Source: Pyrinomonadaceae bacterium | GTDB taxonomy: Bacteria > Acidobacteriota > Blastocatellia > Pyrinomonadales > Pyrinomonadaceae | Assembly (NCBI GenBank): GCA_014380365.1 | Contig: JACMJZ010000025.1 | Span: 248,001-312,000, forward strand | DNA length: 64,000 nucleotides | Direction of reading: 5' to 3' | In this document: one piece after another, positions 2,024 to 57,687 of the stretch | Layout of the letters: each line of letters starts with the position of its first letter | Position numbering within the stretch: position 1 is the first letter of the stretch | The notes under the pieces: model-generated | Seen by the model: only the letters and a program-made list of their open reading frames with translations | Told to the model about the DNA's origin: nothing | Database searches by the model: none | Program-made: the position numbers and the translations under genes

Positions 2024-3343
2024 ATGCGATTTGTCTTCAGCAAACTCTTCTACCTCCTCGTCGCCGGCGGCTTCATTATCCTTTCGCTTTCATGGGGTCG
2101 CCCGTGGCTGCGTTGGGTCGCGCTTGCTTACGACGTCGCCCTAATCACTCTTGCGATCATCGATGCGCGCCGCAGCAAGCTTCCACTAGCCATCAACATT
2201 ACGCGCGAGTTTGGTGGCCGCTTTGCGGTAGGCGCAAAGACGGAAGTGCGTATTAGCGTGCAGAACGCGCAGGCCCACGCGCTTTCCCTCGTCATCAAAG
2301 ACGAATACCCGGCTCGGATGAAGCTATCGGATTTGCGTGAGGGGGCGATGCGCGTTGATGCGCAAACCTCGGCCGCATTAGTTTACGGACTGACGCCGCC
2401 CAAGCGCGGGCGATTCGAGTTTGGACAAATCGTCGTGCGCTTTCTCTCGCAGTGGAACCTTGCATGGGTTGAAACGCGGATTGGCGAGCCCGTAAATGTA
2501 AAAGTCTATCCAAACATGCGACGCGCGCGCGAGGCGGAGTTGAAAGCCCTGGGCGCGCGCTCCCTGGTGGCTTCACATCGGAAGACTTCCTGGCGCGGCG
2601 AGGGTCGTGAGTTTGAATCGCTTCGTGATTACGTGCGTGGCGATGAGTTGCGCCACATCTCCTGGACCGCCACGGCCCGGCGAGGGAAGTTGACCACGCG
2701 TCAATATCAGATCGAGCGGGACCAGACAATTCTGATTGCCATTGACGCCGGGCGTCTGATGACCGCGCGTATCGAACAAGAAACAAAACTGGATTCCGCG
2801 GTCCATGCAGCGCTTGCGCTGATGTCGGCGGCAGCGCGCGCAGGCGATAACGCCGGCTTGCTGGTTTTTGGCCGCAAGATCAAAAGTTACTTGCCTCCCA
2901 GCCGCGGCCGTGATCACATGGATGCGGCGCTCGAAGCTCTCTACGCGGTCGAGCCCGATATGATCGAACCTTCTTACTCGCACGCGTTGGAGTTTATCGC
3001 CGCCCACAGCAAGCGTCGGTCGCTGGTCGTGCTGCTGACGGATTTGGTTGACGAAGAAGGTTCGAAGGAATTGCTGGCCTCACTGCGGCTGCTCAGGCCT
3101 CGTCATCTTCCCCTCGTGGTGACCATTGCGGATCGCGACCTCAAGGCGGTGGTGAGTAACGTTCCGGAGAACGCGCGCGATCTGTTTACGCAATCAGTGG
3201 CCGAGGAGATCATGTACCTGCGAGAAGCTGCGTTGCGCCGCGTCGAATCACAAGGCGGTTTGGCGCTAGACGTAACAGCCGCAGCACTCGCGCCCTCGTT
3301 GTTGGAAAAATACCTGCAAGTGAAAGAAAGAGGACTGTTGTAA
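2024..3343 (+). CDS. DUF58 domain protein
   Basis: 439 residues. Two hydrophobic segments lie within the first 45 residues, followed by a beta-rich region. The diagnostic DUF58 block is at 192-232, including GREFESLRDYVRGDELRHI and W214 in HISWTATAR. A vWA-like C-terminal domain follows (LIAIDAGRLM at about 237-246). DUF58 proteins are almost always encoded after a MoxR ATPase, as here, and are thought to be its client or partner in envelope functions. Their activity is unknown. Confidence 0.93.
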   Translation: MRFVFSKLFYLLVAGGFIILSLSWGRPWLRWVALAYDVALITLAIIDARRSKLPLAINITREFGGRFAVGAKTEVRISVQNAQAHALSLVIKDEYPARMKLSDLREGAMRVDAQTSAALVYGLTPPKRGRFEFGQIVVRFLSQWNLAWVETRIGEPVNVKVYPNMRRAREAELKALGARSLVASHRKTSWRGEGREFESLRDYVRGDELRHISWTATARRGKLTTRQYQIERDQTILIAIDAGRLMTARIEQETKLDSAVHAALALMSAAARAGDNAGLLVFGRKIKSYLPPSRGRDHMDAALEALYAVEPDMIEPSYSHALEFIAAHSKRRSLVVLLTDLVDEEGSKELLASLRLLRPRHLPLVVTIADRDLKAVVSNVPENARDLFTQSVAEEIMYLREAALRRVESQGGLALDVTAAALAPSLLEKYLQVKERGLL

Positions 3344-3519
3344 GTCAGTCCTTGGTCCGTCCTCCCAATACGCAAGAGTCCTTGCATAAAAGTTAATTTG
3401 GACACTCACGAGCAGCGATTGAAGTATTGACGGAAGTCAGTGATCATGTCGCCGCTTTTCCCAACTCTTATTTTGTTAATTGCGCGCACCCTGCGCGCCT
3501 CACTGAAATGAAGGATCAA

Positions 3520-53444: not shown

Positions 53445-54722
53445 TTGGCAAGTTCACTCGCCGTAATTAATTGCTCACAACTCGTCACTCTCAACGGGCC
53501 TGCTCGTCCGCGGGTCGGGGCCGAGTTGCGTGATCTGCAAATCATCAACGATGGCGCGATGCTCGTCGTGGGCGATCGAATCGATAAGGTTGGCCTACGA
53601 GCCGAAATCGAGCTTTTAATAGAAAATAGCTACGCCGATTCCGAGCTGATCGACGCCGGCGGTCGAGTTGTCATGCCGGGTTTTGTAGATGCGCACACGC
53701 ACCCGGTGTTTGTAGGCACGCGCGCCAGCGAGTTTGAAGAACGCGCTGCCGGCGCCACCTACCAGGAAATTGCCGCGCGCGGGGGCGGCATTCAATCCAC
53801 CGTAAACGCCACGCGCGCCGCGACCATCGATCAACTCGTGGCGGCGGGGCGCCGTTATTCCGAGTGGTTTCTGCGCACCGGCACTACGACGGTGGAAGCC
53901 AAGTCGGGCTACGGTCTTTCGCTTGCAGACGAGCTGAAGATCCTGCGGGCGATCAAGCAGCTCGACCAGGAAACCGCGCTTCGTTATGTGCCGACGTTTC
54001 TGGGCGCACACTCTATTCCGCCGGAGTATCGCTCGCGGCGGGGAGATTACATTTCGCTTATCGTCAATGAAATGCTGCCGCAGGTAGCGCGCGAGGAGCT
54101 GGCTGAGTTTTGCGATGTGTTCTGCGAGGAAAGTGTTTTTACTACTGCTGAGTCGCGGCAGATTCTTTCTGCGGCACGAAATCATGGGCTGGGACTTAGA
54201 ATCCACGCTGATCAGCTTTCGCTTTCGGGCGGGGCGAAACTGGCAGCCGAGCTACGCACCGCCACCGCCGATCACCTTGAACACACCGATGGGGCGGGAA
54301 TCGCCGCTTTGAAATCTGCCGGAGTTCAGCCAGTGCTTTTGCCGGGTTCAGTCTATGCGCTCGGCTCGAGTCGTTATCCGAAGGCAAGGGAAATGATTGA
54401 CGCGGGTCTCGCCCTGGTGCTGGCCACTGACTTCAATCCCGGTTCATCGCCCACGCCCTCGATGCCGATGGTTCTTTCGCTCGCTGCTACGCACATGAAG
54501 ATGTTGCCGGCGGAATCTGTGACCGCAACTACAGTCAATGCTGCTTACAGTCTTGGGCGCGGCGACGAGATTGGTTCACTGGAAGCGGGAAAGCGTGCCG
54601 ACTTTGTAGTTCATGACTGCGACGACTACCGCGACCTCGCGTACTTTTTTGGCATTGAACACCCCTGGAAAGTCTTTGCCGGTGGACGTCTGGCCCACCA
54701 GCGCGCATCGTCGGGGCAGTAG
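53445..54722 (+). CDS. hutI: Imidazolonepropionase
   Basis: 425 residues from a TTG start. Third enzyme of histidine degradation, hydrolysing imidazolonepropionate to formiminoglutamate. Metal motif [35 protein letters not shown] and [15 protein letters not shown] are diagnostic. No other hut gene is in the window. The last codons and the stop (GGGGCAGTAG) lie in the left arm of a family F hairpin. Confidence 0.95.
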
Positions 54723-54794
54723 CCCGACCGTTAGGGAGGGCGTCGTGCTTCCTCGTTGAGCAAACGCCCTCCCTGACTGTCGGGCTACTGCCCC
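54713..54794. repeat. Family F hairpin covering the hutI stop
   Basis: GGGGCAGTAGCCCGACCGTT... (54713-54741) and its complement ...TCGGGCTACTGCCCC (54764-54794). The hutI stop codon is inside the left arm. Confidence 0.9.
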
Positions 54795-54804
54795 AATATT
54801 TTTG

Positions 54805-54834
54805 TTGACGCTGCGATCCCCGGTATTTTATTAT
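54805..54834 (+). promoter_or_regulatory. Sigma70-type promoter for a small transcript
   Basis: TTGACG (54805-54810), 18-base spacer, TATTAT (54829-54834). The predicted start is near 54841. It is independent of hutI, being downstream of the hutI hairpin. Confidence 0.6.
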
Positions 54835-54870
54835 CCCCTCCAACACTGGAAAGGAGGTGATTGAAAATAT

Positions 54871-54906
54871 ATGAGTTTTAATTACAGTGAGGTGGCTGCG
54901 GCCTGA
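54871..54906 (+). CDS. 11-codon mini-ORF after a full-strength Shine-Dalgarno
   Basis: ATG AGT TTT ... GCC TGA, encoding MSFNYSEVAAA. It would be a leader-type peptide; the length and Ala run at the end give no clue to an amino-acid attenuator. Spacing from AGGAGG is 13 bases, longer than optimal. Confidence 0.35.
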   Translation: MSFNYSEVAAA

Positions 54907-55023
54907 CCTCTGAACCAAATCTGATTGTTAGGATTAGAGTTCAGTCGTCTAACTGCTAGTGCTCCTCCTTTTCAGGAAACAGCACTTGCCAGTTAGCCTC
55001 AGGCCAATCCGAACAGTTCACCG

Positions 55024-55058
55024 GAAGCCGTCCATGATTACTCGTGGACGGCTTCTTT
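55024..55058 (+). terminator. Rho-independent terminator
   Basis: GAAGCCGTCCA (55024-55034) pairs perfectly with TGGACGGCTTC (55045-55055) around a 10-base loop, followed by TTTC. It ends the small transcript. Confidence 0.75.
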
Positions 55059-55110
55059 CACGTTTGATTAGACCCGCGATGCGCGAAGCCGGATTCTGGA
55101 GAGAAACCAA

Positions 55111-56700
55111 TCACCAGCAGCCGGCCTCCCAACTAGCGACTTCATAACAACTCCAATCCGTTTCGCCGACGGGATCGCAGTGGTACAACACCCAATAGTA
55201 GGGCGTGCAGTCATTAATATGGCCGCCACCGGGTGGTTCGCCGGGTCCGGGTCCACCACCGCCAAGTGTGAAACATATCCACGAGCAACTCGGAGAAGGG
55301 AGAAACTCCAGTGTTCCAGAGCATTGAGGGGGTTCTGGGGTGGGTTGGGGACACGCCGGCCGGACGCAACAGTTACCCTCGGCATTGTAAAGCGGAGGGC
55401 AACCTCCGGTTTCTATGCCAATCTCCGGTAGGTCAGGATTTGTGCAGTAGTCCCTTGGGATACCACTCGTGCAGTTACCCGCAGCGGTAAACGGACACGG
55501 TATTGGTGTCGGCGAGGGTGTGGGAGTTGGTGTAGGAGTAGGCGTTGGCGTAGGAGTTGGAGTGGGAGTAGGAGTTGGGTTTGATGAGCAAGGGGAAGTG
55601 ACAGCATAGGGACAGTTGTGCCAATAACTGACTTCATCTTCCCACACATGACAAGCCCTGTAGTTGATGGTGACATTCTTGCAATTGCCGGGATAAAAAC
55701 AAAACCTCTCTTCGGTACGATGGACTAAACGGCAGTGGATCCCCGCGCAAGCGTAAGCATCATCGTATTCGTATACGTACAGACATCCCGCAGCTGTACA
55801 GCATGAGTCTGGTGTCGGATTCGCTTTGCTCGAAGTGGTTGTCACAAGACTTGAGGCTGCCGTAGAAAAAAAAGTAGCTGGCAGATTTCTCGCCAGCTCA
55901 CCTCCTAACCGCTTCCACGTAGCTAAGTCTCTTTTGACCGAGAATTGCGCATGGTGTGCTCTTGATGAGTCTAATTCAGGTACTTGCGGGCAAACGCCGG
56001 GGCCTGACTGTTTCTCCGGAGTTGGCCAAGGAGCACCATCGGTTGAGCGAAAGCCAGTCCCATCGCCGAAGTTAAGCTCTTGGAATATCAATTCGAATCT
56101 CTTCGGCTTTGGCCAGTCTTTACCCCGCCGATAATTGCCCCAATCCAGTTCGCTACCACCGTCGATCTTAAAAACATGAGTTTGACCGGGCTTCAGCGAT
56201 AAGTCGTCACTCTTCGCACCGGAAGCAAAGTTCAGAAACTTCGGGTCCCCAAATCGGAGGTCAAAAAGCATGTTACCTGTGCCGACCTGTAATTCGGGAA
56301 GATTCAAGAGCACTACGAGGTAATAGATCGGTTTGTTTCCGGTATTCTTGACCTCAAGCTCTAAATCGCGAACCCAGCGGTCATTGTTGAGATCCTTAAA
56401 TGCCTTCTCTTTCTCCGCCTTGATCTTGACCTTGATAGGCAGGTGCTGGGGCAGCTTGTCTTCAACCTGTCGTTCTTCCGAAAGTTGTGATTGTTTCTTT
56501 TCGTTTTCCTGAGTTGCTTTCAATAAAGCAATCTCCTGGCTGGTGGGCTTGTTTTTTATATGGTCCTTCCCGCGCAGCACTGTCATGCTGATTGGTTTCC
56601 GACGCTGGTTTGATTGACCGCTGATGTAACGGGTGCCAACGATTAAGCAGCCCGATATCACGAGGAACGAAAGGGCTAGACTGAGGCGCTTATGTAGCAT
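55111..56700 (-). CDS. Secreted Cys-rich protein with a PT repeat, paralogue 1
   Basis: 529 residues. Signal peptide MLHKRLSLALSFLVISGCLI. A conserved N-terminal ~230 residues has a beta-rich domain (ELEVKNTGNKPIYYLVVLL, FELIFQELNFGDGTGF). A cysteine-rich region with about 30 Cys follows, interrupted by a run of Pro-Thr dipeptides encoded by a GGAGTTGGTGTA-type microsatellite at 55505-55580. Extracellular, probably disulphide-bonded. The paralogue at 56884-57687 shares the N-terminal 230 residues. Unknown family. Confidence 0.82.
   Translation of the reverse strand: MLHKRLSLALSFLVISGCLIVGTRYISGQSNQRRKPISMTVLRGKDHIKNKPTSQEIALLKATQENEKKQSQLSEERQVEDKLPQHLPIKVKIKAEKEKAFKDLNNDRWVRDLELEVKNTGNKPIYYLVVLLNLPELQVGTGNMLFDLRFGDPKFLNFASGAKSDDLSLKPGQTHVFKIDGGSELDWGNYRRGKDWPKPKRFELIFQELNFGDGTGFRSTDGAPWPTPEKQSGPGVCPQVPELDSSRAHHAQFSVKRDLATWKRLGGELARNLPATFFSTAASSLVTTTSSKANPTPDSCCTAAGCLYVYEYDDAYACAGIHCRLVHRTEERFCFYPGNCKNVTINYRACHVWEDEVSYWHNCPYAVTSPCSSNPTPTPTPTPTPTPTPTPTPTPSPTPIPCPFTAAGNCTSGIPRDYCTNPDLPEIGIETGGCPPLYNAEGNCCVRPACPQPTPEPPQCSGTLEFLPSPSCSWICFTLGGGGPGPGEPPGGGHINDCTPYYWVLYHCDPVGETDWSCYEVASWEAGCW
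55497..55583 (-). repeat. Coding microsatellite (Pro-Thr)n
   Basis: Degenerate GGAGTTGGTGTAGGAGTAGG-like hexamers on the + strand encode alternating Thr-Pro on the minus strand. Length is likely variable between strains. Confidence 0.85.
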
Positions 56701-56883: not shown

Positions 56884-57687
56884 CTAAATGGTCAACAAAC
56901 CGAATCGTAACGAAACGGAATCATCGTCTAGGCGTTGTTGCTGGTGAGCCGCGTTTTCTTTCGCGTTACGCTCCGTAAGATCTTCAAGAGGCTGATTTGG
57001 GCAAATACCAAAGCTGGATTGTTGGTTGGTCTGGCGGGGCAGCGCAAGTCCGTCCGTTCCCGCGTAACCCGTGCCATCTCCGAAACTCAGGTATTGAAAT
57101 ACTATTTGGATCTTTTTCGGGTATGGGCGATTCTCTTTCCGCCAAACGACATCCCACGCCTCTAACTGGCCCGGATGAACCTTGAAAATGTATGACTCGC
57201 CGGACTTAATAGAGATATCGTCAGGATCCGCCTTCACCCTTAGGTCTCCCAGTTCAACTCTTCCATAATTGAGCGGGGCTATGATGCGGAACCCCTTAGC
57301 AGCCCTTACATCAGTGACCGCCAGCAAGGTCAGCGAGTAGATAGGTTTATCACCTGTGTTCGTAACTTCAAGCTCAAAGTCGCGCGCCCAACGCTCATTT
57401 TTCAAATCCCTAAACTCCTTTTCCTTCTCCTTCCTTATCTTGATTTTAAGTGGAACGTGCTTCGGAATCTCATCCTCTAGCTTTCTTTCGTTTTCTTGCG
57501 GAGCTTTGAAGTACGCAATCTCCAGGCTGGTGGGCTTGTTCTTAATATGGTGCTTCCCACGCAGCACTGTCATGCTTATTGGTTTCCGCTGCTGGCTTGA
57601 TTGACTGCTGACATAACGGGTAGCCACGCTTGAGCTGCCCGATATCACGAGGAACGAAAGGGCTAGACTGAGGCGCTTATGTAGCAT
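56884..57687 (-). CDS. Secreted protein, paralogue 2, truncated by the duplication joint
   Basis: 267 residues with the same signal peptide and N-terminal domain as 55111-56700 (MTVLRGKHHIKNKPTS, FGDGTGYAGTDGLALP). The Cys-rich and PT parts are missing. The last ~22 codons (AAHQQQRLDDDSVSLRFGLL) are antisense of a copied fragment of the start of the GT39-like gene. So the C-terminus is a product of rearrangement; function may be lost or altered. Confidence 0.8.
   Translation of the reverse strand: MLHKRLSLALSFLVISGSSSVATRYVSSQSSQQRKPISMTVLRGKHHIKNKPTSLEIAYFKAPQENERKLEDEIPKHVPLKIKIRKEKEKEFRDLKNERWARDFELEVTNTGDKPIYSLTLLAVTDVRAAKGFRIIAPLNYGRVELGDLRVKADPDDISIKSGESYIFKVHPGQLEAWDVVWRKENRPYPKKIQIVFQYLSFGDGTGYAGTDGLALPRQTNQQSSFGICPNQPLEDLTERNAKENAAHQQQRLDDDSVSLRFGLLTI
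56886..56965 (+). pseudogene. Copied 5' fragment of the GT39-like gene
   Basis: ATGGTCAACAAACCGAATCG at 56887 repeats the start of the gene at 57865, and similarity continues for about 80 bases with a one-base deletion (TAACGAAACGG against TAAGCGAAACGG) that breaks the frame. It then runs into the tail of paralogue 2. It marks the duplication joint. Confidence 0.85.

Follow-up and report, generated by a model that had tools for sequence, protein, structure and literature searches.

The closest described relative of the element reported here is Ms_IGR-5 (RF02471), which Rfam describes as an sRNA of Actinobacteria. Its RNA has been observed in Streptomyces lividans, where it was validated by RNA-seq, and in S. 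avermitilis (PMC8079986 and PMC8780764), and it is ncMSMEG15794c in M. smegmatis (PMC10454040). According to PMC4974804, homologues in M. abscessus and M. smegmatis carry ribosome footprints. No paper that we found in the open-access literature, supplements aside, mentions an ORF in this RNA, and it is treated there as an sRNA. Two other kinds of system are useful for comparison. The CcsR or 'cuckoo' RNAs of alphaproteobacteria are small RNAs with a C-rich, anti-SD-like loop. In prfB-type internal Shine-Dalgarno (SD) sites, an SD-like hexamer close to the stop codon acts on the ribosome at termination.

We analysed a stretch of 64,000 nucleotides from a Pyrinomonadaceae bacterium (hereafter the window), in which a first-pass annotation had reported a promoter, an SD, a short ORF, an anti-SD loop and a terminator. 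All of these features are present in the sequence at the coordinates given (Table 1). Starting about 7 nt past TATTAT, the layout consists of AACACTGGAAAGGAGGTGATTG, the ATG at 54871 with its frame of 11 codons, then a branched RNA and a strong hairpin of terminator type. The predicted promoter matches at 10 of 12 positions (boxes at 54805-54810 and 54829-54834), and none of 200 shuffles of the RNA region folds as well as the native sequence (z -5.4). For the terminator hairpin, at about 55024-55054, the predicted energy is -27.3 kcal/mol; its U run is short, and a pattern scan did not list it. The hairpin reported earlier is there, its 11 bp being nearer 15 when inner pairs are counted.

Table 1. 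Coordinates of the element's features in the window
Feature	Position	Strand	Basis
Promoter TTGACG - 18 nt - TATTAT	54805..54834	+	pattern scan and relatives
Predicted transcript, ~216 nt	54842..55058	+	inferred start 7 nt 3' of the -10 box
P1 hairpin	54844..54889	+	fold, consensus fold, strand-swap tests
SD1 AAAGGAGGTGAT	54850..54861	+	duplex energy, shuffles
Mini-ORF, 11 codons + TGA (54904-54906), MSFNYSEVAAA	54871..54906	+	reading of relatives, frame and drift tests
SD2 GAGGTG (read in frame as Glu and Val), nine bases 5' of the stop codon	54889..54894	+	
P2 5' strand	54891..54904	+	P2a GGTGGCTG 54891-54898; P2b GGCCT 54900-54904
GTTAGGATT, possible alternative partner of 55006-55014	54927..54935	+	statistics: Zixibacteria only
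Lineage-specific hairpin presenting CCTCCTTTT (54964-54972)	54950..54998	+	genus-level conservation only
P2 3' strand with conserved motif AGGCC - AATCCGAA - CAG TT CACC	55001..55022	+	
Rho-independent-type terminator hairpin and short U run	55024..55058	+	fold

RF02471 is the Rfam family closest to the window element (22.6 bits, E 0.0023, compared to a gathering score of 45 bits), and none of the other families reaches threshold there. We also rejected tmRNA, which likewise combines structured RNA with an Ala-rich ORF end, since neither ARAGORN nor Rfam reports a tRNA-like domain or tag frame. Among 39 relatives, 17 match RF02471 at E 0.1 or better and none exceeds the cut-off, while 13 of 16 sources in another search match at that level and 5 pass (L204, L215, L162, L199 and L158). 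The matches over the cut-off fall at the homologous place in Acidobacteriota (L162, 50.6 bits; L158, 47.3 bits) and in Zixibacteria (L054, 55.9 bits; L199, L204 and L215). For comparison, all six actinobacterial loci tried score 66.9-179.4 bits and the Spirochaetia locus L065 scores 29.4 bits. In the reverse direction, a sequence-only model of 12 Acidobacteriota sequences recovered eight of eight loci tried from three other phyla, at E 6.2e-7 or better and at their known positions. The window element and Ms_IGR-5 share primary and secondary structure, namely P1, GTGAGGTGGCTG, P2 and the 3' motif. Taken together, the RF02471 matches and the recovery of other phyla by the Acidobacteriota model indicate, on sequence grounds, that the window element is a homologue of Ms_IGR-5 that lies outside the family at Rfam's own cut-off.

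To describe its distribution we combined several searches. Of 59 related genomes, 33 have a BLAST match (E 0.1 or better) to positions 54790-55060 of the window, and the core is present in 29 of the 30 loci fetched from these matches (L030 lacks it). A pattern scan of species genomes gave at least 120 loci (L031-L150); the pattern matches listed are mostly from Actinomycetota, together with Acidobacteriota, one Zixibacteria and one Spirochaetia, and because the pattern fixes GTGAGGTGGCTG and the SD those bases are not countable as conserved in these loci. A model of 69 positions that includes the window sequence (R1) matches 57 of 247 Acidobacteriota genomes at E 0.001 or better, with 41 matches below 1e-6. 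At E 0.01 it matches 117 of 246 Actinomycetota genomes and 53 of 132 genomes of the phylum of Zixibacteria (47 below 1e-7), and 10 of 149 Spirochaetota genomes (7 below 1e-6; the other three are, on reading, not the element). Outside Spirochaetota, part of the weak matches were read. Nearly every matching genome has one match. The 5' core and the 3' motif are, by this comparison, common to at least four phyla, Acidobacteriota, Actinomycetota, Zixibacteria and Spirochaetota, where the last two names rest on L054 and L065 and the number is a lower bound set by the phyla that the searches covered.

The comparative tests start from 246 loci. A finder (GAGGTG plus a stop at 15 or 18 bases) retained 237 of them, 227 of these had a 3' motif, and 111 were left once redundancy had been removed. 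The finder dropped L030, L080, L187-L189, L196-L198 and L242. In counts by clade, 'Actinomycetota' denotes every locus unassigned to another phylum. CACTGGAAAGGAGGTGATC is conserved, as are the mini-ORF with its GTGAGGTGGCTG and RGGCYAATCCCAACAGTTCACCG, after which comes a hairpin; conservation is found in the 5' part (P1 and the ORF) and in the P2 3' strand. In 28 of 29 core loci the sequence 3' of the motif has a folding energy between -23.6 and -38.9 kcal/mol; the remaining locus, L023, runs to a contig edge. All 13 non-redundant Blastocatellia-type loci have a promoter-like TTG/nAnnnT pair of score at least 8 at a like distance, as do 12 of the 17 other Acidobacteriota, 5 of the 6 Spirochaetota, 7 of the 16 Zixibacteria and 8 of the 59 Actinomycetota. 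Relatives keep promoter, SD, ORF, structure and terminator, in agreement with the first-pass description of a structured RNA that stands alone and has a translated mini-ORF; the hairpin that presents the CCTCCTTTT loop varies from clade to clade. Carriage by phages or plasmids was considered and rejected, as one pattern found 0 stretches on viral contigs and a plasmid search with the window element gave no match; the mycobacterial version has one 75.4 % match, on a 2.66-Mb replicon of Nocardia farcinica. The actinomycete MAG locus L106 also holds a c-di-AMP riboswitch (RF00379, 52.7 bits) at 3223-3389 on the forward strand.

The 12-base anti-SD complement of the first-pass annotation, AAAGGAGGTGAT, is found a single time in the window and never in 100 shuffles. 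Duplex energies were computed with a 13-nt 3' tail of 16S rRNA that we take to be representative, as distinct from this organism's own: the sole GATCACCTCCTT in the window's assembly (G000:C13, L247) falls outside any 16S gene, so the 16S 3' end seems to be missing. SD1 matches nearly the whole single-stranded part of this assumed tail, with -20.1 kcal/mol in the window, while for 60 window ORFs of at least 150 codons (spurious ones included) the mean is -4.1 and the best value -10.9 kcal/mol. Across loci, and with the same assumed tail, the mean is -21.1 kcal/mol for SD1 and -10.5 for SD2. SD1 is far stronger than ordinary SDs. Its distance to the start codon is mostly 10-15 nt, and the usual optimum is shorter. 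The second SD-like hexamer, GAGGTG, is present in every locus read, and when the stop codon is in the A site, the geometry of the sequence places SD2 at about initiation spacing from the P-site codon. Three Acidobacteriota loci (L154, L155 and L159) have a doubled ORF unit, SEV...RTREV, with two in-frame GAGGTG, as if SD2 had been duplicated.

Two helices enclose these elements. P1 combines CACTG (54844-54848) with CAGTG (54885-54889) and GTGAT (54857-54861) with ATTAC (54881-54885), two pairings that overlap at C54885; the SD core lies between the strands and the start codon in the loop. The minimum-energy fold of the window has a longer P1b in place of P1a. Over the 111 loci, P1 strands pair better with their own partners than with swapped ones (0 of 2000 permutations reach the observed value). 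Within clades this is clear only in Actinomycetota and Zixibacteria; it is weak in the Blastocatellia type (163 of 2000) and other Acidobacteriota (75 of 2000) and absent in the six Spirochaetota (1094 of 2000).

In P2b, the last ORF codons and the stop pair with the strand preceding AATCC, the 5' strand extending into the stop codon. Own strands average -15.4 kcal/mol compared to -9.4 for swapped strands, with 0 of 2000 permutations overall (111 loci), 0 of 2000 in four of five clades and 5 of 2000 in Spirochaetota. As the 3' motif site was picked among candidates by P2 pairing energy, this test somewhat favours own strands; conversely, the automatic motif is visibly misplaced in a minority of the 111 loci (for example L006, L016, L020, L031, L203 and L211), and retaining them should weaken it. 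The consensus fold of 29 loci has both-side changes in five, GGCC/GGCC becoming GACC/GGTC or GTCC/GGAC. Paired changes are also seen in P2a, such as CCTG with CAGG and GCCG with CCGG, and it is the 3' strand of P2a (CAG..CACC) that, within the RNA itself, complements SD2. Comparison of the loci thus indicates that the two halves of P2 co-vary and that the stop codon is buried in the predicted helix.

A start codon 6-15 nt past GGAGG and open to GAGGTG exists in the ORF frame in 104 of 111 loci, compared to 1 and 11 in the other frames. The stop lies five codons from GAG in 148 of 149 loci and six in one, and is TAG in 30, TGA in 8 and TAA in 3 of 41 non-redundant loci. The most upstream start is ATG in 54, TTG in 35 and GTG in 16 of the 111 loci; the remaining six, on reading, have CTG, ATT or ACG in that place. 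The same holds for individual loci (L200, L208, L211, L214, L235, L236, L241, and likewise L242, L245 and L246), where no ATG, GTG or TTG fits and CTG, ATT or ACG stands where relatives start; these would be unusual initiation codons. From the start up to the codon that precedes GAG, 103 close pairs, which are phylogenetically non-independent, differ by 32 synonymous and 114 non-synonymous changes, a synonymous share of 0.22 compared to 0.21 expected under neutrality, and the changes fall 50, 56 and 40 times on the three codon positions. Translation of the mini-ORF, and not the sequence of its peptide, thus appears to be conserved by evolution, although SD2, the fixed stop distance and P2 involve the same bases, so part of their conservation may be structural only. 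That the mini-ORF is translated, as proposed at the outset, is consistent with its retention in relatives and with the footprints on Ms_IGR-5 homologues in two mycobacteria (PMC4974804).

The interpretation we lean towards, tentatively, is that the element is a divergent, old, usually single-copy and free-standing Ms_IGR-5 homologue that works as a ribosome-gated RNA. Judged by comparison of loci, a 30S subunit would be offered the extended SD1 beside hairpin P1. It would enter a short ORF whose start, frame and stop position are kept while its variable codons drift neutrally, and would reach at the end of that ORF a second SD-like GAGGTG and a stop inside the co-varying P2. With the stop in the A site, the anti-SD of the ribosome could pair with GAGGTG at roughly initiation spacing, so that the terminating ribosome would linger. 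Because the P2 3' strand complements GAGGTG, the lingering ribosome would compete with P2, and the share of molecules with P2 open would then report ribosome loading and termination. The open state would free the conserved AATCC/CACC strand for a partner, an RNase or a base-pairing target. The earlier suggestion that ribosome occupancy exposes or hides structure survives in this form, with P2 in the place of the loop.

Alternatively, the RNA may be a ribosome reservoir or decoy, an abundant short RNA on which SD1 and SD2 hold 30S or 70S, the ORF making the hold dynamic and no downstream target being needed. The very strong SD1, the position of SD2 at termination spacing, the neutral codons and the mycobacterial footprints (PMC4974804) would all fit. 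Such a function leaves the conserved AATCC..CAG..CACC motif and the co-varying P2 unexplained, and there is usually one copy per genome. We consider it unlikely.

The middle region bears on another alternative, a dual-function trans-acting sRNA with a mini-ORF, in which the 3' part or lineage-specific hairpins would pair with mRNAs; the first-pass annotation had proposed the CCTCCTTTT loop for this role. The unit is free-standing with a predicted promoter and terminator, CCTCCTTTT sits in a hairpin in the predicted fold, and all 14 loci from the window's genus have CCTCC/CTCCT. However, this anti-SD core is carried by the most variable region, which changes freely outside the genus, and is near chance in most other clades: 8 of 59 Actinomycetota loci (8.2 expected), 3 of 17 other Acidobacteriota (3.4), 1 of 16 Zixibacteria (1.7) and 1 of 6 Spirochaetota (0.3), with 5 of 13 in the Blastocatellia type (1.5), a set that includes the window's genus. 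We therefore rejected the anti-SD loop as the family's conserved part beyond the genus and did not retain it as the working part; it may be a local addition and not the family's device. Regulation in trans of this kind is rather unlikely in our view.

The loop had also been proposed to pair in cis with the RNA's own SD. The predicted probability of this pairing is 0.000 in the window and exceeds 0.2 in 3 of 14 loci of the genus (0.95, 0.46 and 0.27). A further proposal, switching through GTTAG at 54927, stands as a possible pairing: apart from one mismatch, GTTAG(GATT) is complementary to AATCCGAAC (55006-55014). Comparable pairings exceed shuffles in Zixibacteria only (z below -2 in 11 of 16 loci, compared to 1 of 13 in the Blastocatellia type), and pairing of AATCCCAAC with GTTGGG/GTTAGGATT was dropped as a general feature as its support is confined to that group. 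In the Zixibacteria loci L199-L217, GTTGGG of the middle region can pair either upstream in its hairpin or with ATCCCAAC of the 3' motif, and these predicted pairings could possibly form a mutually exclusive switch.

A functional micropeptide, its conserved ...E-V-x-x-x terminus being active in the cell or within the ribosome tunnel, would explain why GAG GTG occurs in every locus read at a fixed distance to the stop. Against this, the codons for Glu and Val lack synonymous changes (all 89 covariance-model loci that were read have GAGGTG, although the locus finder demanded that hexamer), the same bases also pair in P2, the remaining codons drift neutrally, and ORF length ranges from 11 to 23 codons, start included. 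Examples of the peptides are MSSYHSEVAEA, LYSNRTREVAVR, LINTELSEVAAT, MQFNIRRTSEVAER and VSLPSFHSETREVPVT (first letters as the codon's ordinary meaning). We regard a peptide function as quite improbable.

The neighbouring genes differ between clades. In Acidobacteriota the upstream gene is presumably hutI, in mycobacteria a pabC-like gene lies upstream and an Rv0813c-like gene is convergent, and in Streptomyces a pdxH-like gene is convergent, all names being our assignments from reading the proteins. In the window, the next long ORF downstream is on the opposite strand, so that no co-directional gene lies directly downstream. The downstream ORF clusters common to the largest groups are also on the opposite strand (45, 37 and 28 loci); one same-strand cluster of 46 loci covers nearly the same loci as that of 45 and looks like its antisense frames. 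The neighbourhood points to no target. A leader-peptide attenuator that would control a following gene in cis is very improbable given these opposite-strand clusters and changing neighbours. Its classical layout of short ORF, competing helices and terminator is present, and in some loci (Micromonospora, Spirochaetia) the ORF called next runs in the same direction as the RNA. Just upstream of the RNA's promoter, a long inverted repeat at 54713-54794 lies at the end of the hutI-like gene and is probably its terminator. Downstream, the proteins at 55111-56700 (-), which has a (PT)n stretch, and 56884-57687 (-) have near-identical N-termini (MLHKRLSLALSFLVISG...) and are likely tandem paralogues.

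Returning to the ribosome-gated RNA, we also entertain a broader and more doubtful idea, that it represents an RNA class of at least four phyla that needs translation and not its product. The ribosome would be the ligand, the mini-ORF a sequence-neutral track, and SD1/SD2-P2 a sensor of initiation and termination; slow initiation would belong to the device, and for this reason starts would drift to TTG and near-cognates. The family that Rfam lists as a non-coding RNA of actinobacteria has a far wider range and carries marks of obligatory translation. This opens a direct test of the ribosome itself as the switch ligand of a bacterial RNA, irrespective of peptide sequence, for which Mycolicibacterium smegmatis and Streptomyces lividans are tractable hosts in which the RNA has already been seen.

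Compared to known systems, the RNA resembles the Caulobacter sRNA CC2171 (RF01867), considered as a candidate relative in alphaproteobacteria, at its 5' end, CAACA..GAAAGGAGGTGA, in a match of 15.5 bits (cut-off 75, E 0.3) resting on about 20 bases; our search of the open-access literature found no paper on CC2171 in Caulobacter. The CcsR or 'cuckoo' RNAs, likened here by description, differ in that the anti-SD loop of our RNA is conserved in one genus only and the RNA is usually single-copy. With prfB-type sites it shares an SD-like hexamer just 5' of the stop, whereas the spacing is different and the frame ends at the stop with no frameshift product. Ms_IGR-5 differs in its middle region and in its description as an Actinobacteria sRNA. 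It has the same order of ACAC, SD, GTGAGGTGGCTG, P2, 3' motif and terminator hairpin, and by our reading its Rfam consensus has this frame too, as TTG ATT GAT TTA TGG ACA TGT GAG GTG GCT GCC CGC TAG.
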